Source of the DNA: Parabacteroides sp. PFB2-10
Lineage (GTDB): Bacteria > Bacteroidota > Bacteroidia > Bacteroidales > Tannerellaceae
NCBI RefSeq assembly: GCF_029893085.1
Contig: NZ_JARXWI010000005.1
Span: forward strand, 1 to 64,000
DNA length: 64,000 nt
Direction of reading: 5' to 3'
A program made the translations under genes and the position numbers. The notes under the pieces were generated by a model. It did no database searches, was not told the DNA's origin, and saw nothing but the letters and a program-made list of their open reading frames with translations. This document shows, one piece after another, positions 17,703 to 64,000 of this stretch (its first letter is position 1; each line of letters begins with the position of its first letter).

Positions 17703-18968
17703 TCATCTTTCCATCAACCGATAAGCCACCTCCGAGGCCTTCTCCAGGATAGCTTCTTCGCCTGCGACTTTTTTATTCTCCATCAAAATCCGTCCGTTAC
17801 AAATAACCGTATCCACACAACTACCATTGGCGGCATAGACCAGATTCGACACAAAATGGAAATTAGGCGCAAAAACAGGCATCTTCAGATCGATCAGGCA
17901 CAAATCAGCCAGGCAGCCCTCGGCTATCCGTCCGGCATTCAGTCCGGCGATTGAAGCCCCCACAGCAGTGGCCGCCTCCAGCATCTCCCCGGCTGTCAAC
18001 GCCTCCGGATCCTTACGCCAGCCTTTTCCTAAAAGCGAAGCCAATTTCATTGCCTCCACCATATCTAAGTTGTTCGACGAGGAACAGCCATCGGTTCCTA
18101 TCCCGACCGCAACACCCTTCTCTTTCATCTCTTTAAACCGAAAATGGATACCGGATCCCAATTTCATATTCGACGCCGGGTTATGCGCCACCTTCACGCC
18201 ATAATCCGCCAATAATTGGATCTCCCCCTCATCCACATACACCCCATGCGCGATCAACAAACGCGGAGAAAGTACACCCAATCGATGCAAATAGCGCACG
18301 GGCGTCAACCCAAAATCACGCACCGCATTAGCCACCTCCTCCTCCGTCTCCGCCAGATGCAGATGGATCAACAAACCGTTCTCTTCCGAAAAGCGGTTTA
18401 CCCATTGAAGCATCTCCCCCGATACGGTATAAATAGCATGAGGTCCCAGCGAATAGGTGATCCGATCGGAAAAGGCTCCGACCCGGCCATATTGCTCACG
18501 CAGTTTCTGCTTGCCTTTGCGCATCAGTTCCGGGTTGAAGTGATCGAAGCAAACGCCCGACAACACCCCGCGAACGCCCATCTCCTCCACCGCCTGTGCC
18601 GTAGCCTCCAGGCGCTGATACATATCAAAAAAGGTAGTCGTCCCCGATTTGATCATCTCCAGACAGGCCAGTTTAGCGCCCCAGTACACATCCTCGTCGG
18701 TCATCTTCGCCTCGTTGGGCCAAATCTTCTCCTCCAGCCAGGGCATCAGTTTCATATCGTCACCAAAACCACGAAACAACGTCATCGCTGCGTGCGTATG
18801 CGTATTCACCAATCCCGGTATCACCGCTTTGCCGCTCCCGTCGATCACCCGCGAAGCATCCACAGAGAGGTTTTCACCTACCTCCTTTATAAGGTTTCCT
18901 TTAATATATATATCGGTCACCTTATCGCACAACAGGACATTTTTTATTAATATATCGGACAGTATCAT
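17703..18968 (-). CDS. mtaD: amidohydrolase, probable 5-methylthioadenosine/S-adenosylhomocysteine deaminase
   Basis: This is a 421-residue metal-dependent amidohydrolase of the ATZ/TRZ subgroup. Metal ligands are visible as His57 and His59 in NTHTHAAMTLFRG, a later HLHLAETEEE (metal His plus catalytic Glu), AHGVYV, and the Asp of GIGTDGCSSSNNLDM. The WPNEAKMTDEDVYWGAKLACLEM segment (residues about 88-110) is typical of MtaD/SAH deaminases. It would deaminate S-adenosylhomocysteine, methylthioadenosine or related adenosines. Guanine or cytosine-like deaminase activity cannot be excluded from sequence. Its ATG overlaps the helicase stop by four bases, so the two genes are cotranscribed. Confidence 0.85.
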   Translation of the reverse strand: MILSDILIKNVLLCDKVTDIYIKGNLIKEVGENLSVDASRVIDGSGKAVIPGLVNTHTHAAMTLFRGFGDDMKLMPWLEEKIWPNEAKMTDEDVYWGAKLACLEMIKSGTTTFFDMYQRLEATAQAVEEMGVRGVLSGVCFDHFNPELMRKGKQKLREQYGRVGAFSDRITYSLGPHAIYTVSGEMLQWVNRFSEENGLLIHLHLAETEEEVANAVRDFGLTPVRYLHRLGVLSPRLLIAHGVYVDEGEIQLLADYGVKVAHNPASNMKLGSGIHFRFKEMKEKGVAVGIGTDGCSSSNNLDMVEAMKLASLLGKGWRKDPEALTAGEMLEAATAVGASIAGLNAGRIAEGCLADLCLIDLKMPVFAPNFHFVSNLVYAANGSCVDTVICNGRILMENKKVAGEEAILEKASEVAYRLMER

Positions 18969-20275
18969 GAGAAACGAGCTTTTACATTTTTAATTTTTTC
19001 GCCTTCGATCCGATTTAACAACGATTTGTATTTTTCGCGTTTCACCGCGGCATACGAACAGCTTTCTTTCACTTCGACCACGCCCAGTTCCTCTTTTTCC
19101 AATCCTCCCTTCTGAAACAAAAAGCCGACAATATCTTTTTTGCTCAATTTATCGCGCTTCCCCCGGTTAATCGTGAGGGTTACCCAAGGCGACGGAACGG
19201 GCTTTTTGGCCACAGCCGGCAGAAAGAACTCCTCCGGCTCACGATCGATATATTCGGGCACAAACTCCTCCGGGTTCAGAATCAGGAAAGCATTTCCCGA
19301 AGCGTGCATACGCGCCGTGCGTCCGTTGCGGTGAATATAAGCCTCTTCATTCAAAGGCAGATGGTAATGAATCACATGATGCACATCGGGAATATCCAAC
19401 CCGCGCGAAGCCAGGTCGGTCGATATAAAGACAGCCGCGCTGCCATTGCGGAAATAAGACAAGGCCCGTTCGCGTTCGGGCTGCTCCATACCGCCATGAA
19501 AAAAGACATTATCCACCCCCTCGCTTGTCAGCCAATTACTGACCCGCTCGACCGCCTCCCGCAGATTGCAGAACACCAAAGCGGACTCTCCTTGTAACTC
19601 TCCGAGCAGACGATACAATGTTTCCAGTTTATCTTTCTGAGGAGAGTACACCTGCCGCACGGTCAGATTGCGCGACTCGCGCACCTCGCTCAGAAACGAG
19701 AGGCGAACCGGCGATTTCATGCCGACGAACGAGGGGATCTCCACCGCTTCGGTGGCCGAGGTCAATACTCGCCGCCGCAAAGCCGGGAGATGTGCCAGAA
19801 TCTCTTTCATTTCGGAAAGGAAGCCCAGTTCCAGCGATTTATCGAATTCATCGAGAATAAGCGTATGCACCGTATCGAGATTCACCGTGGCTCGTTCGAT
19901 ATGATCTACCAGGCGTCCGGGCGTAGCAATCAACACCGTCGGTGCATGCTCCAGGCTTTTCTTTTCCGTACGGAAGGGATGGCCGCCATAACAGCAGTTC
20001 ACCTTATACCCCGTGCCCAACGAGCGTAATACCGTCTCGATCTGTAGTGCCAGCTCACGCGATGGAGCCACAATCAAAGCCTGTATCTTCTTCTCCTCCG
20101 AACCTAATACAGTCAGCAACGGCAGGAGAAAGCCCAGGGTCTTTCCCGAGCCGGTCGGACTCAATAGAAGCATATCTTTTGTCGTGCCCGCGTCCAACAC
20201 CGCCTGTTGCATCTCATTCAGCGAAGCTACACCGGCATTCTTCAACGCGCGCGAGATCATTTCATTTTCAGCCAT
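18965..20275 (-). CDS. DEAD-box family ATP-dependent RNA helicase with DbpA-type C-terminal domain
   Basis: This is a 436-residue helicase. The core has motif I SPTGSGKT, Ia PSRELALQ, ATPGRL, motif II as DEFD instead of DEAD (LILDEFDKS), motif III TSAT, motif V STDLASRGLD and motif VI HRNGRTAR. Residues about 365-436 resemble the DbpA RNA-binding domain, which directs E. coli DbpA to 23S rRNA helix 92, so a role in large-subunit assembly is likely. The DEFD variant keeps both catalytic acids of the Walker B motif. A -7 box (TATATTTG) lies about 30 bases upstream, and the stop overlaps the start of the amidohydrolase gene. Confidence 0.92.
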   Translation of the reverse strand: MAENEMISRALKNAGVASLNEMQQAVLDAGTTKDMLLLSPTGSGKTLGFLLPLLTVLGSEEKKIQALIVAPSRELALQIETVLRSLGTGYKVNCCYGGHPFRTEKKSLEHAPTVLIATPGRLVDHIERATVNLDTVHTLILDEFDKSLELGFLSEMKEILAHLPALRRRVLTSATEAVEIPSFVGMKSPVRLSFLSEVRESRNLTVRQVYSPQKDKLETLYRLLGELQGESALVFCNLREAVERVSNWLTSEGVDNVFFHGGMEQPERERALSYFRNGSAAVFISTDLASRGLDIPDVHHVIHYHLPLNEEAYIHRNGRTARMHASGNAFLILNPEEFVPEYIDREPEEFFLPAVAKKPVPSPWVTLTINRGKRDKLSKKDIVGFLFQKGGLEKEELGVVEVKESCSYAAVKREKYKSLLNRIEGEKIKNVKARFS

Positions 20276-20309: not shown

Positions 20310-20365
20310 CACATTCCTATGCGAAACAGATCATATCCCGCCGGGAGCAACAGAAAAAAGAAGAA

Positions 20366-20548
20366 TGTTAAAATATCGATTGTAAGCAAAACGGCTATTT
20401 TACTTACAAATCCATACGTTAAAAAATGTTTCTCCCGGGAGTTTGTCTCCAAAGTCCCACCTTTTTGCGCGCAAAGTCCCGCCAAAATTACAAATCGTAA
20501 TTTGGGGGTTTCGCCAGAAATGGACGTTTTAACGTTTGTTTACAAACC
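20366..20548 (+). repeat. dispersed ~180-bp intergenic repeat, copy R1
   Basis: This copy aligns without gaps through its conserved core to 34111-34290 (R2) and 44651-44830 (R3), all in the same orientation. Shared blocks are: a TGTTAAAAT start, a stem with AAGCAAAACG, the palindrome CTCCCGGGAG, two copies of AAAGTCCC flanking TTTTTGCGCGC, and ATTACAAATCGTAA near the 3' side. The end carries TTTTAACG, nearly the inverse of the start. Flanks outside the repeat are unrelated. Small open frames on both strands inside it look spurious. Confidence 0.85.
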
Positions 20549-20560
20549 CATACTAGCAGG

Positions 20561-20628
20561 TGCAACCGGGGAGGTTGCATATCTTTGTAGGTTGATCTTC
20601 GATTGCCGTCTGCTTTAGCTGACGGTAA
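20561..20628 (+). repeat. REP-like palindromic repeat (short form)
   Basis: A stem-loop at 20561-20579 (TGCAACC with GGTTGCA) is followed by ATATCTTTGTAGG and a second stem (20603-20610 with 20621-20628) whose loop contains GCTTTAGC. The head and the CTTTGTAGG and GCTTTAGC motifs recur in the larger palindromic element at 44086-44280, so these are members of one repeat family. Confidence 0.7.
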
Positions 20629-20707: not shown

Positions 20708-22339
20708 TCACTGACGTTTCTTTCCCCAATAGGTTTTGGGGGCGGTATAACCGGCGTAGACGATCGTATGGGTGCGTGGAGAGGCTTCCCAGTCTACCTC
20801 ACGCTGCAGGTAGAGTTTGACACCGTCGACGGTGAGTACCTGGTTTGTTTTATCGAACGACCAACCGGCTCCCTTCCATGTCCCGGAGGTAACCGTATGA
20901 TCTTTCGAGAAGGTCATGGTCGTTGCCGTTTTTTGTTTGCCATAGCTATACGAGAGATCGATATGTTCCCAGGTGCCGACAATCTCCTCTTCGGTGATCT
21001 CGACAGCAGGCACGGCACCATAGCGCTCAGGCATAACCAATGGCCAGCCATCGTCCGTCCAGCGAATGCTACGTACATGTCCCATCATAACGGCATTGCT
21101 CACGTTGATACCGGCAATGCCTTCGGGAAGACGTCCCTGGGAGGCATAATACCAGTTGCCCGCACCATCGTTGAAAATGGCACAGTGCGAGATGCCCACC
21201 CAACCGTGTCCGTCGGTAAACTTATACGGATGGGTCACCACGGGAAGTATATTCTCGCTCAGGGTGATATCCTTCCCATCGATGCCGTAATAGGGACCGG
21301 TAACCTCTTTGGCACGAGCCACGCGGGTGTTGTAGGGCGTGCCCAGCGCATCGTAGGCGACAAACAGGTAATAGTAGTCCGTTTCAGCGTTATAGATTAT
21401 TTCCGGCGCCTCCGATCCCTGCCAGCGATAACGTCCCCGGCTGTAGATAAGCTGCCCGTAGGGCGATTGTTCTGTGATATTCCAGGGATCCGTAAGCTCT
21501 TCAAGCGGCTTGCCTGTTTCAGGATCGACCTGCAGGGCGGCCATACCGCTATGCCAGGAACCATAGATCAACCAATGCGCACCGCTTTTGGTAATCACAT
21601 ACGTGGGATCGATCGCGTTCCATTTGAAATAGCCTTCCCAGTTGTTAGTAGAGGGGCGTGTCCACTCATTCATCCCTTTATCGGAGGCGGAACAGACTAC
21701 AAAGCCTTTGTCTTCCCAACGATTGGAGGCCGGATCGTTCGTTTCCATCAGGCCGATGAAGGCACGTTCCGTCCAGGAATTATCGAAATTGTTTCCTGTA
21801 TTGGGCGCTCCTGTCTTGATAAAATGGTCAATAATGACGGAGTAATACATACGGTAGCGACCGGGAGCCACCTTGCGGGCAACGGGTGCCCAAAAGCCAT
21901 AGTTCGGGTTTTCGATAGGCGCAAGCCCCTGCTGTGCGCGTATCTCATTGAGCTTTTCCTTGACCCAGGAGGGAGCCGCCTCCGGCATGGTTGCACCCAG
22001 GTATTCCCAGTTCACCAGGTCTTTGGAACGACGTCCGTGAAAATGGCCGTTTCCGGCGTGTACATTGCCATAAGAGGCATCGGTCTGGTACATATAATAG
22101 TAACCATCATCGGCCTTCATCACCGTCGGATCGTGTACGTTTGCCAGATTCCACCGGTCGCGCTGGCTCCAGGCAGCCATAGCGGTATAGTCGTCGCTGT
22201 AGGTGGGCGCCTTGTAGCTGTTGAGCGGGTTGTTGGGATCCGGTTCAGGAATCTCATTATCATCACCGCAGGCTGTTCCAAGCAGGAGGCAGCCAACAAA
22301 CAGGGAAAGCCATATATGCGATTTCATACGCGTTGTCAT
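20708..22339 (-). CDS. GH43 endo-1,5-alpha-L-arabinanase, surface lipoprotein
   Basis: This is a 543-residue lipoprotein (lipobox LGTAC, Cys24). The five-bladed GH43 propeller (about 50-440) shows the catalytic triad: Asp70 in NVHDPTVM (base), Asp244 in NAIDPTYV (pKa modulator) and Glu313 in SEAPEIIY (acid). Residues about 455-543 match the small beta domain at the C-terminus of Bacteroides endo-arabinanases (starts IVGTWEHID, ends YWGKKRQ). It would cut alpha-1,5-arabinan chains at the cell surface. It is the last gene of the SusC/SusD operon, 119 bases beyond the SusD gene with an intervening hairpin, and is followed by a terminator. A long open frame on the opposite strand is a shadow. Confidence 0.93.
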   Translation of the reverse strand: MTTRMKSHIWLSLFVGCLLLGTACGDDNEIPEPDPNNPLNSYKAPTYSDDYTAMAAWSQRDRWNLANVHDPTVMKADDGYYYMYQTDASYGNVHAGNGHFHGRRSKDLVNWEYLGATMPEAAPSWVKEKLNEIRAQQGLAPIENPNYGFWAPVARKVAPGRYRMYYSVIIDHFIKTGAPNTGNNFDNSWTERAFIGLMETNDPASNRWEDKGFVVCSASDKGMNEWTRPSTNNWEGYFKWNAIDPTYVITKSGAHWLIYGSWHSGMAALQVDPETGKPLEELTDPWNITEQSPYGQLIYSRGRYRWQGSEAPEIIYNAETDYYYLFVAYDALGTPYNTRVARAKEVTGPYYGIDGKDITLSENILPVVTHPYKFTDGHGWVGISHCAIFNDGAGNWYYASQGRLPEGIAGINVSNAVMMGHVRSIRWTDDGWPLVMPERYGAVPAVEITEEEIVGTWEHIDLSYSYGKQKTATTMTFSKDHTVTSGTWKGAGWSFDKTNQVLTVDGVKLYLQREVDWEASPRTHTIVYAGYTAPKTYWGKKRQ

Positions 22340-32393: not shown

Positions 32394-33839
32394 TTATTTA
32401 TTTTTTATAATACTGGATATCTGATTTGGAGTCAACTCAAAATCATAAATAGCAAGATCGTCAAACATAAATCCGGGATCCGGGTCACCCCAACCCCAAG
32501 CCTGGTTTCCTCCCAAACAGATATAGGTATAGGCAGATCCGTGTTCAAACAGTCCGGCGAAGCTCTGTCCGTCCGCGTTGCCGTTGATCTCCCATTCGTT
32601 GATCAATACTCCGTCGAAATACACCTTTGCCGTTTTTTCAGTCATCGTGGCTATATAATGGTGCCATTTCTTGTCGGCCAGCCAATCGGTTGCATTATGT
32701 AAAACCTTATTTGCGCCGGCTACATTCTGGGCATCCGTGAAGTCACACCATCCATTGTTGTTGATCATCAATACGCCCCGGTATTGCAAAGCAAACATCG
32801 GTGCTCCGTTTCCACCTTCCGGCGCTTTGTTATAGGCTGTCAATAGCGGCGACCACATATAAACAGGGGAATCACCCGCCTCTTTTGCATTCACCCACAT
32901 ACTGATCGACATTTCTTTGGTTTCAGTCGAGTGAGATAATACACCCGATGGCAACAAGAGATAATTCTGGCGCATGCCTCCTGTTACATTTTTAAATACC
33001 TGTCCGAATCCGGGATCATCCACCGTGACGAGGCTACCACCTCCGATAATCGTAGCCGTACCCAGATCATCAAACGTATTCATGTAGACAGGCGGTCTGC
33101 TTACCGGCGGTTTCACAACCGGCACGTTTATCTCTTTCGCGGTCACTTTATTGCGGTAAACCTTTAAGTCTTTCAATTTGATTGCTTCAGGAGGGGTACT
33201 ACTGTCATACCCCAGGTAAAGATGAGTAGACGACATCATAAAGTCTTTTACATTGACGAAATCGAAGTCGGTCGATACATAGTCGGTCGCCTCCTTGCCA
33301 TCAACATAGATTGTATACCCATCGACATGGACAATCACCGCTAGGTAATGCCATTCGTCCGGCGTCAACAACGCCGAAATACCCGGATCAGAAGAGAAGT
33401 TTCCGGCAGCGGATTGAAAAGCAATACTTCCGTTGCCTTTAATGGACAAAGCGGACTGATTGTCTTCGCCTGTCAAGGAGATCAAAGTGCCCTTTTCATT
33501 CTCCCGACCTACATTCAACCAAAAGGTAAAAGAACCTCCCAATTGAAGATTCGCATTGAGAAGAGGACTGGCCAAACGCATATATCCTCCTTCCAAACTT
33601 AATACATTGGTAAGATAATCATCGTAAACAACTTCCGGCACGTTGCCTTCGGGATAGGCAAACAGCTCTGCATCAACATCCTCCAACGTGTCAAATGCAT
33701 GATTGCTTAATAGTTGCAGTTTGGGATAGACTTGATTCCCGGAAGGGGGATCCCATTCTCCCCACTTATGGCATGAGGAGAGAAAGAAAACTGTCATTAC
33801 CGTTGTCAATACAAACAACGGCCACCTTCTTGTCTTCAT
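32394..33839 (-). CDS. LamG-domain surface lipoprotein, probable arabinan-binding protein
   Basis: This is a 481-residue lipoprotein with lipobox FLSSC (Cys23). Two concanavalin/LamG-like domains can be traced: about 75-235 (GSFTFWLNVG, DEWHYLAVIVHVDGYTIYVDG) and about 255-480 (EMSISMWVNAKEAG, KKWHHYIATMTEKTAKVYFDG). Paired motifs of the type W-H-x-Y/L followed by YVDG/YFDG are typical of this fold. It is the first gene of the SusC/SusD operon and occupies the place of the surface glycan-binding protein in such loci, so arabinan binding at the cell surface is likely but unproven. No catalytic signature is seen. Confidence 0.85.
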   Translation of the reverse strand: MKTRRWPLFVLTTVMTVFFLSSCHKWGEWDPPSGNQVYPKLQLLSNHAFDTLEDVDAELFAYPEGNVPEVVYDDYLTNVLSLEGGYMRLASPLLNANLQLGGSFTFWLNVGRENEKGTLISLTGEDNQSALSIKGNGSIAFQSAAGNFSSDPGISALLTPDEWHYLAVIVHVDGYTIYVDGKEATDYVSTDFDFVNVKDFMMSSTHLYLGYDSSTPPEAIKLKDLKVYRNKVTAKEINVPVVKPPVSRPPVYMNTFDDLGTATIIGGGSLVTVDDPGFGQVFKNVTGGMRQNYLLLPSGVLSHSTETKEMSISMWVNAKEAGDSPVYMWSPLLTAYNKAPEGGNGAPMFALQYRGVLMINNNGWCDFTDAQNVAGANKVLHNATDWLADKKWHHYIATMTEKTAKVYFDGVLINEWEINGNADGQSFAGLFEHGSAYTYICLGGNQAWGWGDPDPGFMFDDLAIYDFELTPNQISSIIKNK

Positions 33840-34110
33840 AATAATACTTTGTTTTAGGTTATTGAAAAAAATAAATGTAATTTATACACTGCAAACATAC
33901 GAGGTCGCTTTTCAAAGGAGGAGGATTATTGTATTTACAAAGAGGATAATCGAGCAATTTCCCATTTTAGCTTATTCGAATCACAAATCAACATCTACTC
34001 ACTAAACGCTTCGGAAAGGCCTCCTCCCCTACCACATTTCCCCAATTGCTTCTGATCCTTCGGGAAGCGAATGTTATTTGCTCTGCGCCTACGGCTAAGC
34101 GATCTCCGAT
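33840..34110. other. intergenic region upstream of the LamG/Sus operon
   Basis: With repeat R2, this forms the 485-base gap between the regulator gene and the operon it should control. It must contain the operon promoter and the binding site of the regulator's AraC-type domain. A TACATTTA -7-like box (one mismatch) lies near 33876-33883 on the minus strand, without a clear -33 partner, as expected for an activator-dependent promoter. No gene is seen. Confidence 0.4.
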
Positions 34111-34290
34111 TGTTAAAATGAAAGATTTTAAGCAAAACGACGTTTTTAATTACAATCCGGTATGTTAAAAAGTGTTTCTCCCGGGAGTTTGTCAAAAAAG
34201 TCCCGCCTTTTTGCGCGCAAAGTCCCGCAAAAATTACAAATCGTAAGTTGGAGTTTTCGAAGAAAAGGGGTGAATTTAACTTTTATAAAC
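34111..34290 (+). repeat. dispersed ~180-bp intergenic repeat, copy R2
   Basis: This is the most divergent of three copies. The core from GTTAAAAAGTG through CTCCCGGGAG, the paired AAAGTCCCG motifs and ATTACAAATCGTAA is preserved without gaps. The 5' stem region and the 3' quarter have drifted and the 3' terminal TTTTAAC is weakened. It lies between the regulator stop codon and the LamG/Sus operon. Confidence 0.85.
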
Positions 34291-34324
34291 AATTCAAAAA
34301 AGGGGTCATATGGCCGGTTGCTCG

Positions 34325-37300
34325 TCACTCATCGTCTATTTCCCGTGTATTTTCCATCAGCTCTGTCGGGGTTACATTAAAGCGTTTGACAAAGCAACGG
34401 GTAAAATATTTGGGGTCATTGAATCCTACCTCGTAGGCTATTTCCGATATGTTCATTTTCTTGGTAATTCTGTTTACTTCGATCAACTCACGGGCGACAT
34501 TCAACCGGTAATTACGGATAAATTGCCCCAGCGACTGTCCCGTCAACGTTTGCAGTTTCTTATTCAACAGGCTTTTGCTGACTCCCATGGATTTAACGAA
34601 CTCGGCTGATTCGTATGATGGATTCTTGTAGTTTTCCTGTACGACGGAAAGGGCTTTATTGATAAATTTCTCATCCCGCGATTCTTCGACCATCTGCAGT
34701 TCGCGCACATCCATATTCTGGGCAAACCGACTATGGTAGCGGCTTCTGTTCTCAAGGATATTATTTATCCGGGTCAACAACAGTTCGTCGTTAAATGGTT
34801 TTGACAAGAAGGAATCAACCCCCATCTTGTAGCTTTCAATGCGTGATTCCTGTGATGTTTTAGCCGTAAGCATCAAGAATGGAATATGAGAGGTGGTAAA
34901 GTTTTTCTTCACCCTCCGCGAAAGTTCCACCCCATCCATAACAGGCATCATCAGGTCGCTGACGATGAAATCGACATTGTTTGCCTTCAACAGTTCGAGT
35001 GCTTCTTCGCCATTCCCTGCTTCGATCACATTATACTGCTCTATCAGGATAGAACGGATAAAGCTTCGCATATCCTGATTATCTTCTACGACCAACAAGG
35101 TCAGCTTCCCGGGAATAAAAGAGGTGATAGGTTGATCCTCCTTTTCTTCCGGGAACTGTGGTTTCCCGGCGACGATTTCCTGTTGTCCGGGAGCCGCCTC
35201 GTCGATCGGTATCACTACCCGGAAAGAGCTTCCCGCGCCTTTGTTATTGGCAGCGGAAATAGTTCCGCCCATTTGTGTAATAATACTCTTTGACAAATAG
35301 AGTCCGATGCCTGTGCCGCTTTGTCCATAAACCGGAAATTTCACCTTGTTTTTAGACTGATAGAAGCGATCGAATATATTGGAAATATCCGCCTCCGGAA
35401 TACCAATGCCATTATCTCTGACAGCTATATACAGGCGCTTTCCTGAGCGATCGTTCAAAGTTGCCGCATAAAGCGATATGGTGCCCCCATCCGGTGTGAA
35501 CTTGATCGCATTTGACAACAAATTGGTGATGACCTTTTGCATCGCATCCTGATCAAACGCCCATTCGTCTGTATCAATACGCATATATTGCCTGAGTGTG
35601 ATCTTCCTGCCTTCCGCCAAAACAGCAAACGGGGAAATAAGGGTAGATATGAAGTGTCTGAAATTTCCTTTCGTTTTCACAATCTGCAACTTGCCGGATT
35701 CCACCTTGCGGAAATCCATTATTTGATTGACAAGTGAAAGCAGGTATTTCGCATTGCGCTCGACAAAGCTGAGTTGTTCGATCACTAAGGGGTTGTGACT
35801 CAGCTTAAGGGCACGCTCGATGGGGCCTGTAATCAGGGTGACGGGGGTGCGGAATTCATGCGTAATGCTTGTGAAGAAAGAGATCTTATCGGCCGTTAGC
35901 TCCTGCACCTTTTCGGACATTTCAATCAGTTGCGTTTTCTGCCGCGTAATTTCGTCATTCTGATGTTTTAGCATCTCGTTTTGGTGGGATAATTCGCCTG
36001 CCTGAACTTCCAATAACTGCTTCTGTTCCCTGAGTTCATGCGTTCTTTCGTCTACAATTTTGTGTAAGTGCTGTTTTTGTTTTTGCAGTATAGCGATACG
36101 TCTTATATAGATATACACAATCAGGCAGATCACACTTATCATCAAAAGGGATATAAACCAGGGAGTTTTATAGAAAAAGGGGGTAACGATCACCTGGACT
36201 TTGGTTACGGGGGGGTCTACTTCTTCGTCATCAATCGAGTATTTCACCTCAAAAACATAATCTCCGGCAGGCAAATTCGTATAATTGGCAAAACGGCGGT
36301 CGGCAGGCACCTCGATCCAATGCGGATCAAATCCGACTAAGCGGTAACTATAACGGGCTGTTACCGGCGAATCGAAGTTTAATGCCGCAAATTCTAACCA
36401 GAAAGACTTATCACTTTCATGCAGGTGTATGGCTTTTACGGTAGAGATATCCCTGTCGATATATTTCTTTCCGGGTTTTATACGCTGGTTCATAACGCTC
36501 AACTCGGTCAGGGTCACTTTCGTATTATGCGTTCTTGAAGTCTGAATTTTGGGATCGATCGCTGCCAAACCTTTTATGCCACCAAAATAAAGCATACCGC
36601 TTTGAGAGGCTAAAGCACCATTCCAGTAAAACTTATTATCCATCAAGCCATCGTTGCTTGTGTAATTTGTAAAACTATTCGCCGCAAGATCAAAACAGGA
36701 TATCCCATAATTGGTATTTATCCATAGGCGCTTACGATCATCTTCCAAAATCCCCCGGACATTATTACTTATCAGTCCATGGTGATTATTGTAATTAATA
36801 AAATGGCCTATGGCTCCGTCTTCATTAGGAATATGCTTAAACAGACCATTGCCATTGCTTCCCAACCACAAGGTATTATCAGAGGCCAGAAACAGGTAAC
36901 AAATATATTCTCTCAACCGGGAGGTCGGGTCGTCCAGTTTGTATTTCAGATGGGAATGCCGGAATTTATCATTCTTTCGTGAATGTAGGTCAAAAACAAA
37001 AACGCCATACATTGTTCCCATCCACAACAGACCGTTTGGGTCGATAATCACGCCTGATACACAGTGTATCTGATCCGATAATTGTTCGTCATAAAAGGGA
37101 TTATGCAACCGATCTGTCTTGAAATCATAATAGTAAAGCCCCTCGTCTGCGCCAATCCACATAAGGTCGTTGATAGGATCATAACATAACGAAGCAACGA
37201 AGCCAAGATGAAACCCCGGATTATGCCAGGGAGCGAAATACTTAACCGCGGGCATTCCCGGACGTTCCGGGTCGAAAACGGTGATCCCCCCTCCCCAGGT

Positions 37301-38584
37301 GCCAACCCAAAGCTGGTTTCGGTTGTCTTTAACGATTTCGCTTACGGAATTATGGCTCAAGCCACTGTTCGCTGTTGTATAATGAATAAAACGTTCGCTT
37401 CCCTTTTCTTTCCGGTTTATACCGCCTTCGACCGTACCGACCCACAAGGTTTCCTTTTCGTCTTCATATATCGCATTTACCGGATTAGGCGATAAACTGT
37501 GCGGATCATACTTCTCATAGACATAGTTTTTTATCGACAAACTCTTGGGCGTTATTTTATTCAATCCACCCGACTCCGTACCAATCCATACGATATCACC
37601 GTCAGCCATCATGCAATTAATGAAGTTCGAGTTCAATCCTTTCTCCGGACTTTCGGTATCCAGCATGATTTGTTCAAAGTCATCGGTAATCGGATTATAG
37701 ACATTGAATCCCCGATAGGTGCTTACCAATAACTGGTTTTCGCTATTCAGCGCCAGGTCTGTGATGAAAGTCTGTGTTAATCCCCTTTGAGTTTCATTCG
37801 AGTAGTATGACTTAAGGCTTTCCCGATTTCTGTCATAGCGTATCAGTTCCAGGTTTGTTCCGATCCAGATCTCATTTTCTTTCCGGCAAAGCGAGCTGAT
37901 CCTGATGCCTTCATTAAACTCAAGCTGGGGACTTATGGTGGTCGCCTGCAGCTCCTCCTGGCGGGTAAACACCTTACTGACCTTATGACCCACGGCGAGC
38001 CACACATTGCCATCGCCATCCATATCGTTTATAACCACAGGATAATCTAAAAAGCCGGTTTCAAGCGAATAATGTTTTTGCAGACCACCGTTTGCATCAA
38101 ATGTTATCTTGTAGATAATTCCGTCACATGCCATCCAGATATTGCCTTTACTATCTTTCGTGACATACGAAACGGATTGTTGAAAAATAGCAGCAGCGGG
38201 TTCTTGTGGTTCAGTAAGTGTAACCATTTTGTCGGTAGACAAATCGAGAATGTCGATCCCTTCCGTCGAGGCAATCCACAAGCGTCCGAAAGCATCTTCA
38301 CAACAACCTGTAATAAAATTGCTCCTTACTTTCCCATCAGGCGTATGGATTGTATAATGTATAAACTCGTAACCATCATACCGCGAAATACCACCTCCCC
38401 GTGTCGCCAGCCAAAGAAAACCGCGGCTATCTTTATATATGTAATCGATGAAATCATGGAGAAGTCCGTCTTCCATGGTTATATAGGCGAAATTATTACG
38501 CGAAGTAAAAGACTCCTGCGCACGGGTCGTCGGACAAGAAAAAAGGATACAAAATAGTATGACTATGTAGGAATGTGGTCTCAT
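34325..38584 (-). CDS. hybrid two-component system regulator (HTCS) of the arabinan locus
   Basis: This 1419-residue single-protein sensor-regulator has, in order: a signal sequence, periplasmic two-bladed-propeller repeats (about 30-690, recurrent DSRGFLWLATRGGG-type Reg_prop motifs), a Y_Y_Y domain (about 700-790), one transmembrane helix (about 805-827), a coiled coil, a HisKA domain with phospho-His909 (THEFRTP), a HATPase domain with DNGIGI and GTGIGLYLSK, a receiver domain (about 1158-1275, phospho-Asp1210 in VSDLMMP), and an AraC-type HTH at about 1310-1412. Homologues bind oligosaccharides in the periplasm and activate adjacent loci; the B. thetaiotaomicron arabinan homologue responds to arabino-oligosaccharides (from memory). 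All phosphorelay residues are intact. It is divergent from the GH51 operon and has its own consensus promoter. Confidence 0.96.
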   Translation of the reverse strand: MRPHSYIVILFCILFSCPTTRAQESFTSRNNFAYITMEDGLLHDFIDYIYKDSRGFLWLATRGGGISRYDGYEFIHYTIHTPDGKVRSNFITGCCEDAFGRLWIASTEGIDILDLSTDKMVTLTEPQEPAAAIFQQSVSYVTKDSKGNIWMACDGIIYKITFDANGGLQKHYSLETGFLDYPVVINDMDGDGNVWLAVGHKVSKVFTRQEELQATTISPQLEFNEGIRISSLCRKENEIWIGTNLELIRYDRNRESLKSYYSNETQRGLTQTFITDLALNSENQLLVSTYRGFNVYNPITDDFEQIMLDTESPEKGLNSNFINCMMADGDIVWIGTESGGLNKITPKSLSIKNYVYEKYDPHSLSPNPVNAIYEDEKETLWVGTVEGGINRKEKGSERFIHYTTANSGLSHNSVSEIVKDNRNQLWVGTWGGGITVFDPERPGMPAVKYFAPWHNPGFHLGFVASLCYDPINDLMWIGADEGLYYYDFKTDRLHNPFYDEQLSDQIHCVSGVIIDPNGLLWMGTMYGVFVFDLHSRKNDKFRHSHLKYKLDDPTSRLREYICYLFLASDNTLWLGSNGNGLFKHIPNEDGAIGHFINYNNHHGLISNNVRGILEDDRKRLWINTNYGISCFDLAANSFTNYTSNDGLMDNKFYWNGALASQSGMLYFGGIKGLAAIDPKIQTSRTHNTKVTLTELSVMNQRIKPGKKYIDRDISTVKAIHLHESDKSFWLEFAALNFDSPVTARYSYRLVGFDPHWIEVPADRRFANYTNLPAGDYVFEVKYSIDDEEVDPPVTKVQVIVTPFFYKTPWFISLLMISVICLIVYIYIRRIAILQKQKQHLHKIVDERTHELREQKQLLEVQAGELSHQNEMLKHQNDEITRQKTQLIEMSEKVQELTADKISFFTSITHEFRTPVTLITGPIERALKLSHNPLVIEQLSFVERNAKYLLSLVNQIMDFRKVESGKLQIVKTKGNFRHFISTLISPFAVLAEGRKITLRQYMRIDTDEWAFDQDAMQKVITNLLSNAIKFTPDGGTISLYAATLNDRSGKRLYIAVRDNGIGIPEADISNIFDRFYQSKNKVKFPVYGQSGTGIGLYLSKSIITQMGGTISAANNKGAGSSFRVVIPIDEAAPGQQEIVAGKPQFPEEKEDQPITSFIPGKLTLLVVEDNQDMRSFIRSILIEQYNVIEAGNGEEALELLKANNVDFIVSDLMMPVMDGVELSRRVKKNFTTSHIPFLMLTAKTSQESRIESYKMGVDSFLSKPFNDELLLTRINNILENRSRYHSRFAQNMDVRELQMVEESRDEKFINKALSVVQENYKNPSYESAEFVKSMGVSKSLLNKKLQTLTGQSLGQFIRNYRLNVARELIEVNRITKKMNISEIAYEVGFNDPKYFTRCFVKRFNVTPTELMENTREIDDE

Positions 38585-42418: not shown

Positions 42419-43996
42419 ATGATCAGATTTAAAAAAATCAATCTCTTATTCTTTATTTTTCTCATGGCTGGCAGCTCATTCGTGTTTGCCGGCAATGAGA
42501 AACAACAACCGACAGAAACAGTAAGCAACCGCGTATCACGTCTGGAAAATCGTGAAAAGATCAAATACAATCCGATGATTTTCGGACAGTTCATCGAACA
42601 CTTCGACAATCAGGTTTATGGTGGTATTTACGATCCCGGATCCAAGTTTTCTGACGAGGATGGCTTCCGGATCGATGTGATGGAGGCCTTGAAAGAATTG
42701 AAAATGCCTATTATCCGATGGCCGGGTGGATGTTTTGTCTCCACCTATCACTGGCTGGACGGAGTCGGCCCCGAACGGACGCCTGTTTACGACAAAACCT
42801 GGCAGGTAGAGGATCCCAATACATTCGGAACAGACGAGTTCATCAAATGGTGCCGGAAGGTTGGCACAGAGCCCTATATCTGCACAAACGCAGGGACAGG
42901 CACCCCCGAAGAGATGAGCGACTGGGTGGAATATTGCAACCTGACAGTAGGCAAATTCGGACGGATGCGGGCTAACAACGGACACCCCGAGCCCTACGAT
43001 GTGAAATACTGGAGCGTAGGCAACGAAAACTGGGGAGGCCACGAATTGGGTGCCAGAACCGTTGAAGAATGGGGACCAATGGTTCGGGAGTCGGCCAAGC
43101 TAATGCGTAGCGTGACGAAGGATCTGAAACTCTTTGCCGCGGCCACTTCGAATAAAGACTGGACCATGCCGCTATTGAAAGCTGCCGGTCAACACTTAGA
43201 CTATATCTCGGTGCATGGCTATTGGGATCCGGCATTTCATGTCAATAACATATCCCCCTACCTGGAATGTATGATGCGGACAGAGAGACCGGAAGAAGAT
43301 ATTCAGAGAACCATCAACATATTGGAAGAGGCCGGGTTTGCCGACCGGATAAAAATTGCCTACGACGAATGGAACCTGCGCAACTGGCATCATCCCTGGC
43401 ATGGCGATTTCCGACGCGGATTTGAGTTGGAGGCCCGTCGCAAGAACGACATTCAATCCACCTACACCATGGCGGATGCCCTCTTCTCGGCCTGCTTCCT
43501 GAACTCCTGCCTACGCAATGCCGACTATGTCGAAATAGCCTGTTTCTCTCCGGTAGTCAATACGCGCGGCGCTATTTTCGTGCATCCCGAAGGTATCCTG
43601 AAGAGAACCACATTTCACACACTCTATATGTATGCCAACTGGTTGGAAGCATATATAGTTCCTGTGGAAAGCTCCGTGGAAAAGCTCACCTCCGGCACCA
43701 ATTCGACGAATGTATTGGATGTGATCCTCACCTCCGATGAAGCGGGCAAACGATATGTGTATGCCATTGTCAACAAAGACCCCAAACGCGACATCGACCT
43801 AACGCTCGATTTTGAAGGCCTTGGAAAGAAAGCCCCAAAAACATTAAACGGACAGGTGTTAAGCGGAAAGAGCCCGGACGATTACAATGACATTGGTGCG
43901 GAAAACAGGGTCGTTCCCGAAAAAAAGAGCTTTAAGGTGAAAAACGGAGCTGTCACCCTACCTCCTCATTCATTAACCTTTATTACTGTTGAATAA
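42419..43996 (+). CDS. GH51 alpha-N-arabinofuranosidase
   Basis: This is a 525-residue protein with a signal peptide ending near FVFAG and no lipobox, so it is probably periplasmic. It is the compact GH51 type: catalytic acid/base Glu203 in WSVGNENWGGH, nucleophile Glu317 in IAYDEWNLRNW, and the RWPGGCFVSTYHW and FGQFIEHFDNQVYGGIYD substrate-site motifs. It ends in the standard C-terminal beta domain (LPPHSLTFITVE). It differs from the 699-residue GH51 in lacking the large N-terminal domain, so the two probably divide linkage or chain-length preference. It is the last gene of the operon; beyond it lies the repeat-rich gap. Confidence 0.95.
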   Translation: MIRFKKINLLFFIFLMAGSSFVFAGNEKQQPTETVSNRVSRLENREKIKYNPMIFGQFIEHFDNQVYGGIYDPGSKFSDEDGFRIDVMEALKELKMPIIRWPGGCFVSTYHWLDGVGPERTPVYDKTWQVEDPNTFGTDEFIKWCRKVGTEPYICTNAGTGTPEEMSDWVEYCNLTVGKFGRMRANNGHPEPYDVKYWSVGNENWGGHELGARTVEEWGPMVRESAKLMRSVTKDLKLFAAATSNKDWTMPLLKAAGQHLDYISVHGYWDPAFHVNNISPYLECMMRTERPEEDIQRTINILEEAGFADRIKIAYDEWNLRNWHHPWHGDFRRGFELEARRKNDIQSTYTMADALFSACFLNSCLRNADYVEIACFSPVVNTRGAIFVHPEGILKRTTFHTLYMYANWLEAYIVPVESSVEKLTSGTNSTNVLDVILTSDEAGKRYVYAIVNKDPKRDIDLTLDFEGLGKKAPKTLNGQVLSGKSPDDYNDIGAENRVVPEKKSFKVKNGAVTLPPHSLTFITVE

Positions 43997-44051: not shown

Positions 44052-44085
44052 ATATTCAAATCATGTAATGTGTGGAGGTGGATAG

Positions 44086-44280
44086 TGCAACCGTTCCGGT
44101 TGCATATCTTTGTAGGCCGTTGCTTTAGCATCGGTATTAACGCATTGAATTCCATTATATGCGTGCCGCAGGTACGCGATCTGTGATGATGGCATACCTG
44201 CGGCACGCCCGGGTTGGATTTGGGACATATATACCGATGCTAAAGCAACGGCCTACAAAGATGATGTCCCTCTCGGGACA
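44086..44280. repeat. nested palindromic element (REP/BIME-like)
   Basis: A perfect 32-bp inverted repeat (44106-44137 with 44231-44262) encloses a second perfect 14-bp inverted repeat (44161-44174 with 44195-44208). Small hairpins sit at each outer edge (44086-44104 and 44265-44280). Motifs CTTTGTAGGCCGTTGCTTTAGC in the arms relate it to the repeat at 20561. No coding content. Confidence 0.85.
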
Positions 44281-44545: not shown

Positions 44546-44650
44546 AGATAGTGATTTCCTCCATTCCTACTCACAATAATCATCCTAAAATACCTTAAAA
44601 TACTTTCCCATTTGATCTCACCGTTCGTTTTCGGGGTCTCCTTTCCCAAA

Positions 44651-44830
44651 TGTTAAAATACGGACTGTAAGCAAAACGCCCCTTTTGCTTACAAATCCAT
44701 ACGTTAAAAAGTGTTTCTCCCGGGAGTTTGTCTCCAAAGTCCCGCTTTTTTGCGCGCAAAGTCCCGACGAAATTACAAATCGTAAATTGAGGGTTTTGGC
44801 GAAAACGAATGTTTTAACATTTATTTACAT
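44651..44830 (+). repeat. dispersed ~180-bp intergenic repeat, copy R3
   Basis: This is the most regular copy. A perfect 10-bp stem near the 5' end (GTAAGCAAAA with TTTTGCTTAC) is followed by the CTCCCGGGAG palindrome, the two AAAGTCCCG motifs around TTTTTTGCGCGC, ATTACAAATCGTAA, and a terminal TTTTAACA that is the exact inverse of the initial TGTTAAAA. R1 lies 24.3 kb away in direct orientation on the other side of the arabinan locus. Confidence 0.85.
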
Positions 44831-44911: not shown

Positions 44912-44951
44912 CCAGAAAAGAGGTGTGCTAAATATCAAATCGAACACGTTC

Positions 44952-47639
44952 ATGAGAAAAACCATTTTGTTTCTTACCATTTGTTTCCATTGTATTAATT
45001 TGTTGAATGCCCAAAGCCAGACACCTGTTTCCCCGGAACGGGTGATGGAGCAGATGGAAATACAGACGGATATTTTCCCAATAGAAAAGCTCTATTTACA
45101 TATCGACCGAAATGCTTATTTCCAAGGGGAAGATATCTGGTTTAAAGCCTATCTGAGGGATGCTTTTCTGCGCCCCTCAGAAACGGGAAGTCGTTATGTG
45201 TATGTAGAGCTGATCAACCCGCTCGACTCGGTTGTCGGTCGCGTCATGACCCGTCCGCAGGAAGGGTTATTCCATGGCAACCTACCTGTCTCGGAGGAAC
45301 TGGCAGAAGGGTTTTATACGCTCAAAGCCTACACCCGATATATGGAGAACTGGGACGAATCTTGTTTTTTTCGTAAGACCATAGAGATAAAGAGTGTATT
45401 GGGTGCCCAAATCCGACCGCATTATAATTTTCATTATCAGAACGATGAGAAAAAGGTGGATCTCACCCTGTATTATACAGCCGGAACAACTGATCAGAAA
45501 ATCAAGCCGGACCGGTTATTGGTCAGAAATAAGCGGGGAGATATGCAGAACATACGGTTGGATCGGGATACGATAGCTCATATCTCATTCGATTTACCCT
45601 TGAAAAACGATCAACGGGCAGTCTATCTGGAAAGCGATCGTTTCCGGCATTTCATTTTTATTCCTTACGAAACAGACGATTACGATGTTGCTCTCTTTCC
45701 CGAAGGGGGCTATCTATTGAATGGTTGCCTGACACGAGTAGCTTTTAAGGCCATTGATTCACAAGGACAAGGGGAAGAGATAACCGGAACGGTATACAAC
45801 CAACAGGGAAACTATGTGTGCGGACTGCAGACTTCGCATGCCGGCATGGGACTCTTTGCCTTCTTCCCCCGAGAGGGCGAGACCTATTATGCCGAGTGCA
45901 TAAACAGCCAGGGAGTGAAAAAACGCTTCGACCTGCCTCAAGCGGTTTCGGGCACTTACGGGCTGCAGGCGGATGCCCTACATGGCAGTTTGTATATCGG
46001 TCTGCAGCACACAAAGAGTCTGCCCTTACAAGAGGATCTGTATCTATTGATCCACCAGAATGGTCGTCCGCTTTATTTCGAACCTTGGAAAAAAGACAAA
46101 CAAGAACTCCGGTTTTCCTGGGAATCTTTGTCGCCGGGCATATTGCAAGTTGTTTTGTTCGATCAACAGATGCGCCCTCTTGCCGAAAGACTGGTGTTTT
46201 CGCCTCTGAAAAATAAGCCGCAATTCGTTCTGCAAACGGATAAGAGCGACTATCGGACACGAGAGAAGGTGTCGCTTTCCATGTGGCTGACTGAAGCCGG
46301 CGAAGCGCCGTTACAAGGTGATTTCTCGGTAGCTATTACCGACGATGCCGATGTCGTGATCGATACTATGCAGACCATCGTGTCGACCCTGCTGCTTTCT
46401 TCAGAGCTGAAAGGGACGATCGAATCGCCTGCCTCTTATCTGCAGGAAAACAATCCGAAGGCAAACCTTGCTTTGGATCTGTTGATGATGACGCAAGGAT
46501 GGCGAAGATATGATTTGAGCGAAGTATTGCAAGGAAATTATACCTATCCGGAGGTATTGCCGGAAACAGGCATCCAACTGACCGGCCAAGTGAGTAGGAT
46601 ATCTTCCAAGAAAGCGATCCAAAACGGAGAGGTAACCCTGATGATGACAACGCCTAAAGGAGAGACTCATTTCGGTCAGGTTCGCAGCAATGAAAACGGA
46701 AATTTTGCGTTTCCTGACATGGAGTATCCCGATAGCACACGCTTTTTTGTTCAATCGCTCAATCAAAAAGGGTTAGATTATGTAGAGCTACACATCGACA
46801 ACATCCGCTATCCGCTTATTAGCGCATTAGACCGGATAAACATCCGCATGAAAAGAGAACCCGTCCGCCCGGTGGTAGAACAGAATTTCAAAAAGGCCGA
46901 GGAGCGTGCTATGTATGACGATAATATGAAAGTGATTCACCTGAAAGAGGTGACCGTTGTGGCTGCTAAGCCAGTAAAGAAAGAAGAATCGCGAAAGTCT
47001 GCTTATGCCTCCATGGGGACGACCGTTATCAACTTTATGGATAAGATAAAAAACAAACATTATTCGAACTTTGCCGATGTATTCTTTGAAATACCCGGCG
47101 TTCAGGTTGTCACAGATGGAAGTGGGAATACAAGACTCGTAATCAGAGGAGCCGGCTCAATGAGCGGCAATTCGTATGCTCTCATAATGATCAATGATAT
47201 GCCGGTGGATTATCCGGATGTTCTTCAGACGATCAGTATGCATGATGTGGCTTCGGTGGAAGTATATAAAGGAGCAGATGCGGCAATATTCGGGGTACGT
47301 GGTGGCTCCGGAGCCGTCAATATCCTTACGAAAACCGGGGAAGATTACATGAATAATCCGGTGGTGAATTATAATAAACAGGTTGTGTATCCGCTGGGGT
47401 ATCAGAGGCCGGTTGAGTTTTATTCACCCAAATACGAGACGCCGGAGCAGAAAAGCAGTTATCTGCCCGACCTGCGAACGACAATCTACTGGAAGCCGGA
47501 TCTGACTACCGATGAAAACGGAGAAACAACTGTTTCCTTTTATACAGCCGACATACCTTCTACCTATTCAATCCTTATCGAAGGAATCACCGATGACGGC
47601 AAGCCCGTGAGGCATATAGAAAAGATACAGGTAAGATAG
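44952..47639 (+). CDS. exported MG2-like protein with TonB-receptor plug domain but no barrel
   Basis: The ATG at 44952 starts a signal peptide (MRKTILFL to NAQSQ), giving 895 residues; an upstream ATG adds nine residues. The N-terminal half has macroglobulin-like (MG2) features, for example YLHIDRNAYFQGEDIWFKAY. Residues about 690-800 match a TonB-dependent receptor plug: FFEIPGVQVV, LVIRGAGS, VEVYKGADAAIFGVRGG. The last 60 residues end in VSFYTADIPSTYSI, again macroglobulin-like. There is no room for a transmembrane barrel. The family is found in Bacteroidota without established function; an envelope partner of TonB systems or proteases is inference. It is monocistronic and converges on mutL. 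Confidence 0.8.
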   Translation: MRKTILFLTICFHCINLLNAQSQTPVSPERVMEQMEIQTDIFPIEKLYLHIDRNAYFQGEDIWFKAYLRDAFLRPSETGSRYVYVELINPLDSVVGRVMTRPQEGLFHGNLPVSEELAEGFYTLKAYTRYMENWDESCFFRKTIEIKSVLGAQIRPHYNFHYQNDEKKVDLTLYYTAGTTDQKIKPDRLLVRNKRGDMQNIRLDRDTIAHISFDLPLKNDQRAVYLESDRFRHFIFIPYETDDYDVALFPEGGYLLNGCLTRVAFKAIDSQGQGEEITGTVYNQQGNYVCGLQTSHAGMGLFAFFPREGETYYAECINSQGVKKRFDLPQAVSGTYGLQADALHGSLYIGLQHTKSLPLQEDLYLLIHQNGRPLYFEPWKKDKQELRFSWESLSPGILQVVLFDQQMRPLAERLVFSPLKNKPQFVLQTDKSDYRTREKVSLSMWLTEAGEAPLQGDFSVAITDDADVVIDTMQTIVSTLLLSSELKGTIESPASYLQENNPKANLALDLLMMTQGWRRYDLSEVLQGNYTYPEVLPETGIQLTGQVSRISSKKAIQNGEVTLMMTTPKGETHFGQVRSNENGNFAFPDMEYPDSTRFFVQSLNQKGLDYVELHIDNIRYPLISALDRINIRMKREPVRPVVEQNFKKAEERAMYDDNMKVIHLKEVTVVAAKPVKKEESRKSAYASMGTTVINFMDKIKNKHYSNFADVFFEIPGVQVVTDGSGNTRLVIRGAGSMSGNSYALIMINDMPVDYPDVLQTISMHDVASVEVYKGADAAIFGVRGGSGAVNILTKTGEDYMNNPVVNYNKQVVYPLGYQRPVEFYSPKYETPEQKSSYLPDLRTTIYWKPDLTTDENGETTVSFYTADIPSTYSILIEGITDDGKPVRHIEKIQVR

Positions 47640-63808: not shown

Positions 63809-64000
63809 TTAAGAAATATAGCGGAAAGCACCAGCATCAATCGGCACTAAATAAGAACCATGTGGCAGTAAATTGACTCCCTTGTTCAAGTAGCGAAATA
63901 GAAACTCATCTCCTGTTGCGTTCTGCCGAAATACGGTTTTCCGCCCATAATCATATATGTAAATAAACGTTAATTTACCCGTTTTCGATAAAATGCCCAA
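63809..64000 (-). CDS. partial open frame running off the right edge, unrecognised
   Basis: At least 63 codons remain open to the window end; the apparent start is a TTG at the very edge, so the true 5' part lies outside. The visible C-terminal part (for example GRKTVFRQNATGDEFLFRY and LLPHGSYLVPIDAGAFRYIS) shows no family I recognise. It ends 76 bases before the methyltransferase transcription unit begins on the same strand. Confidence 0.5.
   Translation of the reverse strand: MGILSKTGKLTFIYIYDYGRKTVFRQNATGDEFLFRYLNKGVNLLPHGSYLVPIDAGAFRYIS

Follow-up and report, generated by a model that had tools for sequence, protein, structure and literature searches.

A dispersed intergenic element of Parabacteroides with invariant blocks and a species-specific core, read as a putative binding platform

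Introduction

What is a repeat of about 180 bp that stands between genes three times in 64 kb, each time in the same orientation? It lies in the window, the whole 64,000-nucleotide stretch analysed here, which is positions 1-64000 of contig C5 of a Parabacteroides-type, gut-type bacterium (genome of 3.69 Mb in 36 contigs, G000 below). A sequence-only reading of this DNA had taken the three segments for a discrete unit, with a very high genomic copy number if the window is representative, and had offered three explanations: a non-autonomous mobile repeat, a structured RNA or a protein-binding site. We followed these up in G000, using the stretches around copies and two contigs, in the sister genome Parabacteroides sp. 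PM6-13 (G003) and in other genomes of the genus and family.

Results

Copies in the window

The three segments align gap-free over ~180-190 bp, all in the same orientation and all between genes, which bears out the alignment and the intergenic placement as first described. These three are real, and the window's right end truncates a fourth, which is on the minus strand. The copies are:

20363..20545, plus strand: copy 1, type I, between genes 18965-20275 (its left neighbour, a DEAD-box helicase gene) and 20708-22339
34109..34290, plus strand: copy 2, a diverged type I, 74% identical to copy 1, between genes 32394-33839 and 34325-38584
44648..44830, plus strand: copy 3, type I, the copy on which the earlier reading centred, 86% identical to copy 1, E 2.7e-59 against the family HMM, between genes 42419-43996 and 44925-47639
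63958..64000, minus strand: fourth copy, truncated by the window; the complete copy is contig C5 63957-64139

The window holds other repetitive sequence. The contig opens with a C-rich low-complexity run of ~85 bases (1-93), possibly an assembly artefact. A perfect 32-bp inverted repeat (44106-44137 and 44231-44262, arms 93 bp apart) includes a Bacteroides-type -7 motif (TATCTTTG) and is a candidate invertible promoter or piece of another repeat. A further short repeat, GTGCAACC..GGTTGCATATCTTTGTAGG, occurs at 20560-20591 and 44085-44116 with 88% identity and also contains a promoter-like -7 motif.

Anatomy of the element

The element is ~180 bp long and is bounded by a terminal inverted repeat of 11-12 bp. 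All the sequence features picked out in the earlier reading are present: the start TGTTAAAA, the end TTTTAACA, the palindrome CTCCCGGGAG, the AAAGTCCC motifs and the block ATTACAAATCGTAA. In copy 3, with columns of the consensus in brackets, the parts are:

44648..44659, no strand: left terminal inverted repeat AAATGTTAAAAT, nearly invariant
44663..44697, no strand: hairpin 1, imperfect palindrome GTAAGCAAAA-N6-TTTTGCTTAC, arms conserved and loop variable (columns 17-51)
44703..44715, plus strand: anchor GTTAAAAAGTGTT, common to repeat families in four of the five genus species examined (columns 57-69)
44703..44744, plus strand: species-specific core, made up of the anchor, the CTCCCGGGAG palindrome (columns 71-80) and two inverted CAAAGTCCCG-like iterons
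44747..44766, plus strand: invariant TTTTTGCGCGCAAA block, overlapping a third CAAAGTCCCG iteron
44770..44788, plus strand: invariant AAATTACAAATCGTAAATT block, type I only
44812..44822, no strand: right terminal inverted repeat TTTTAACATTT

The iterons occupy consensus columns 75-84 (inverted), 89-98 and 111-120. After the TTTTTGCGCGCAAA and AAATTACAAATCGTAAATT blocks the right arm is variable, and in type I a T run follows hairpin 2. Pairing of the terminal repeat AAATGTTAAAAT/TTTTAACATTT is preserved in 86% of cells over 61 copies. A minority of copies, type III, have a much longer hairpin 1 stem, as at L232 7873-8026 (C1:147873; CCGAAGTGTAAGCAAAAAGGGGCAA...TTGCCCC...CTTCGG), and the type III copy at L261 717-884 (C2:320717) has a longer hairpin 1 loop. 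Truncated left halves of the element were seen at L233 18131-18194 (C1:178131) and L259 14638-14701 (C2:294638), the former directly upstream of the promoter-like sequence of a gene for an outer-membrane-type protein.

Copy number and discreteness

About 140-240 copies are present in G000. With up to three mismatches allowed, the 19-mer TTTTTGCGCGCAAAGTCCC was found 142 times, compared with 2 for its reversed control. Exact searches for the left-end pattern gave 91 matches against 0, and these two contrasts exclude chance as the source of the repeat. An 18-mer of the anchor with up to two mismatches gave 170 against 1. A first look returned 238 candidates, and each of the 40 that were scored reached E 5e-59 or better. 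A complete census of 758 kb contained 45 copies, which extrapolates to ~220 for the genome. The very high copy number anticipated from the window is thus real, and a genome-wide search, suggested earlier as a check, did not end with only the three copies. The unit also has discrete boundaries, as had been proposed: a length of precisely 185 nt is shared by 95 of 112 copies, even though their spacers are divergent.

Conservation within copies

Across 90 full-length copies, invariance reaches 95% or more in 113 of the 185 columns and stays below 80% in 37. The latter are spacers, with a mean pairwise identity of 0.50 and yet with fixed lengths. Copies were retrieved by high similarity, which is a possible bias, yet a sensitive HMM census yielded few decayed remnants, and an invariance of 95% or more still holds for 76 of the 137 columns that neither search pattern covers. 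Identity is 94.3% in the closest pair of copies and has a median of 91.4% to the nearest neighbour; the conserved blocks have 0.8% non-consensus bases per copy. The copies seem to be old and to have been conserved where they are. Since ~1% divergence of the blocks with a recent source would give near-identical sister copies, of which none was seen, and since old unconstrained blocks would have decayed as the spacers did, we infer from the sequences that the blocks are probably under purifying selection in place.

Whether this conservation could be that of an RNA was judged from the helices. In 61 copies, covariation in the named helices did not exceed that of shuffles (one cell with changes on both sides against 3.9 expected, with power limited by the many pairs that never vary), and in 27 of the 61 one particular pair of hairpin 1 is disrupted. 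Unpaired stretches are as invariant as stems, and Rfam gave no match at the gathering threshold, nor down to E 5. These results make it improbable that the element is a genomically amplified family of structured RNAs, either genes for small RNAs or elements of mRNAs, even though plus-strand folding lies well below shuffles (z about -5.4, as DNA or RNA), hairpin 1 persists in type III copies with varying length, and type I has its T run after hairpin 2. What survives of the RNA suggestion is the low folding energy; the lack of an orientation bias towards genes, described next, also speaks against it.

Genomic context and spacing

In the census, 44 of 45 copies are intergenic. Flanking genes of 112 sampled copies are divergent in 39 cases, codirectional in 54 (31 ++, 23 --) and convergent in 10, the remainder being too close to a contig end for classification. 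No orientation bias towards neighbouring genes is seen in these counts (31 ++ vs 23 --), and divergent regions are modestly enriched (18 of 43, compared with 30 of 113 among comparable intergenic regions). GC skew revealed no strand polarity, and the GC content of long copy-free gaps did not differ.

Copies keep a distance from each other. Between the 34 type-I copies of the 758-kb census the smallest gap is 5.8 kb and the gap CV is 0.54, none of the gaps being below 5 kb, against a CV of 0.89 and 17-18% of gaps below 5 kb in an intergenic null (P about 0.001). When all types are taken together by adding 11 copies, among which is one truncated type I, a single gap of 43 is below 5 kb where 22-23% are expected. 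On nine contigs, 62 left ends that match exactly were likewise free of gaps below 5 kb; this set partly overlaps the census. The trend is the same in the part of the G003 copies that was listed, measured against a uniform null: the smallest gap is 7.3 kb (P 0.009), and the CV has a P of 0.017. Type II copies are not significantly farther from their nearest type I copy on average (P 0.16), although the minimum of this distance is significantly longer (P 0.006). Close pairs are absent whichever way the two copies point relative to each other, so deletion between direct repeats alone explains the spacing poorly. Target immunity or functional spacing would explain it. The distribution along the chromosome is non-random, as would be expected of chromosome-organisation binding sites.

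Subfamilies and species-specific cores

Flank types I and II are both present in G000 and in G003, so that flanks and core can be compared across species. In the consensus columns, the left flank groups 13:0 by type and the right flank 9:3 by type, whereas the core groups 0:12, with 12 columns by species and none by flank type. The central ~42 bp are thus species-specific across both flank types (CTCCCGGGAGTTTGTCTCCAAAGTCCCG in G000, CTCGCGGGACTAATTTTAAATACCCCTA in G003, with CTCCCGGGAG in the one contrasting with CTCGCGGGAC in the other). Some G003 copies (L046, L048 and L057) have G000-like or intermediate cores, which suggests that the core changed gradually between the two.

Two further species, G004 and G002, share the anchor GTTAAAAAGTGTT, but behind it stand another 10-bp palindrome, CTATATATAG, and GGTAGTAC-like iterons, which make a third core. 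Within G004, two flank types again have the CTATATATAG core in common. G004 has ~85 exact anchors, G002 about seven copies with one mismatch permitted, and G001 none, and the element is therefore not essential to the genus. An anchor-pattern search of 120 genomes of the family did not see it outside the genus, to which it is probably restricted. The TATACGTTGAAAAGTGTT sequence found in other genera of the family, in several copies per genome, lies in 23S rRNA-like sequence and was rejected. At L200, L210, L214 and L220, G004 also carries a second, longer intergenic repeat subfamily (at least 450-590 bp) with the same anchor, iterons ~24 bp apart and the end ATTTTAAC.

Mobility and transposases

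The statement that the repeat lacks a transposase holds for the repeat itself (none was seen inside a copy among ~110 sampled copies and the 758-kb census), but Y1 (IS200-like) transposases occur elsewhere in the genome, and Y1 genes are found in all five genus genomes. Two of them, in two genomes, have an intact copy or a remnant ~0.2-0.5 kb upstream; orientation and distance are not alike in the two cases, and the proteins are only 52% identical. The idea that the two species sharing such a core have a Y1 transposase of their own is weak.

About 16-20% of left flanks are recurrent mosaic modules, which coincide with several contig ends. That about a fifth of left flanks are such shared repeats speaks for a degree of mobility or recombination. 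Past mobility of the element is likely. One ~180-bp module with internal inverted repeats (CACCCCCAGTCGTTCGCTTCGCTCTCTTCACTGGGGG) lies upstream of the copies at L146, L158, L123, L010, L018 and L008, and several contigs break at it (ends of L146, L158, L123, L010 and L018). The repeats hamper assembly, several contigs ending next to copies.

An element of MITE-like or IS200/REPIN-like type, moved by a transposase in trans, would account for the terminal inverted repeat, the mosaic flanks, the Y1 genes with a nearby copy or remnant, and copy numbers of about 0, 7, 85-100, ~100 and ~170+ in the five genus genomes. The core would then be the recognition site of the transposase, the spacing could stem from transposition target immunity, and the differences between cores would reflect different active transposases. 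The element shares terminal inverted repeats with MITEs but not target-site duplications: in 89 copies, at lengths of 2-10 and many boundary offsets, nothing was clearly above paired-shuffle expectation. Recent movement is not visible either, since no pair exceeds 94.3% identity and the blocks are less than 1% mutated. With few decayed remnants in the census, no copy seen to enclose a transposase and two dissimilar transposase associations, we regard a still mobile repeat as rather unlikely. The mobile suggestion is upheld by the terminal repeat, the mosaic flanks and the copy-number differences, and it is opposed by the absence of target-site duplications and recent duplicates and by block-wise conservation. 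Phage and plasmid collections held no match to the element, and four pattern matches in viral contigs were chance hits in unrelated sequence.

Shared sites, recombination and transfer

For about eight of ~25 copies in G003, a neighbouring gene also stands next to a sampled G000 copy. The DEAD-box helicase gene left of copy 1 adjoins a sister-species copy too, at nearly the same distance: the G003 copy L066/L042 is flanked on one side by the orthologue of the gene left of copy 1 (20363) and on the other by that of the gene right of copy L016, in the same orientation and with gene distances of 97/83 and 77/71 bp. This is most simply read as an ancestral site at which the element was rearranged internally. 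In either species the element there has the core typical of that species.

Such a copy, joining the neighbours of two G000 copies at matching distances, probably reflects recombination within the element, and homogenising recombination could also underlie the core switch between species. It is in keeping with the view that gene conversion or recombination has homogenised ordinary old repeats that have no present function, as are the own core of each genome at shared sites and the intermediate cores of a few sister-species copies. However, conversion would have to homogenise short blocks and yet leave adjacent spacers ~50% identical, and it would not give a minimum spacing in both orientations; we consider this origin very improbable.

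The ~3 kb around copy 2 (window 32613-35786 vs L036) are 97-99% identical to G003, compared with 83-95% at the remaining shared loci, and the G003 counterpart of copy 2 (34109) retains a G000-type core. Because of this difference in identity, the region was probably exchanged horizontally in recent time, as judged from sequence. Intergenic DNA of the sister species is too diverged for clean empty sites to be readable. Comparison of G000 with G004 and G002 gave a common neighbour gene within 2 kb in 3 of 22 units, at unmatched positions, and these were not accepted as shared sites.

Discussion

Of the three explanations raised at the outset, a protein-binding site is the best supported, by the invariant blocks, the fixed spacing within the element and the species-specific core across flank types. 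That close relatives carry a different central sequence suggests that the element is read by a putative protein. We put the probability at about one half that this is a genus-restricted, dispersed intergenic DNA element of transposon-like origin which is now selected as a putative multi-site binding platform. The family would probably have arisen in a transposon-like manner, and selection would now keep the copies as binding platforms. The anchor, palindrome and CAAAGTCCCG-like iterons of the core may be what a sequence-specific factor acting in trans recognises, such a factor most likely being a protein that binds DNA; core and candidate factor may drift together, and the minimum spacing may reflect a role in chromosome (domain) organisation.

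A wider proposal is a tentative possibility: a genus-wide marking of chromosomes by hundreds of spaced intergenic platforms, in which core and putative DNA-binding or recombinase factor change jointly in each species and the surrounding modules pre-date the species split. If functional, the binding platforms would form a fast-evolving dispersed site system in which ~100-200 sites per genome switched specificity in parallel between sister species. They would then offer a natural experiment on the switching of genome-wide binding specificity and a possible determinant of chromosome organisation in Bacteroidales.

A literature search, thin on subscription journals, found no description of the element. 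To our knowledge, a minimum spacing together with old, block-conserved copies is unusual for MITE or REPIN families, even if the element is mobile. BIMEs of E. coli are dispersed palindromic, gyrase-binding sites with a possible role in chromosome topology; the element is like them in its dispersed palindromic sites, with binding putative here, and unlike them in sequence and length. BOX is a short dispersed intergenic modular repeat without known coding role. We know of no block conservation, species-specific core or minimum spacing in ERIC, RU-1 or BOX, which are likened to the element by description, not sequence. Two other systems were set aside: integron attC sites form arrays and the element consists of dispersed single sites, and DNA-uptake sequences measure about 10 bp against its 180 bp.

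ERIC and RU-1 (127 bp) are likewise short, dispersed, intergenic and modular, without known coding role (PMC2759123). REP/REPIN sequences with their RAYT transposases resemble the element in being high-copy, palindromic and intergenic with species-specific populations (PMC3116915, PMC3733652), and IS200-like transposases are present in the genome that carries the element. REP/REPINs are, however, GTAG- or CGTC-tagged palindromes of 20-40 bp (PMC3733652), whereas the element is 180 bp long with several blocks, has neither tag in its consensus and no near-identical copies, holds a minimum spacing and, in the two arrangements seen, does not convincingly flank a transposase gene. BrickBuilt and MITEPgRS of Porphyromonas gingivalis come from the same order and are also intergenic, of limited host range and built with a leader and tail bearing short inverted repeats (PMC4596501), and one G004 subfamily described here has iterons at roughly 24-bp steps. 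BrickBuilt has 19 copies, 23-bp tandem arrays and IS5-type ends (GAGACC...) (PMC4596501), and the element differs from it in ends, length and copy number.
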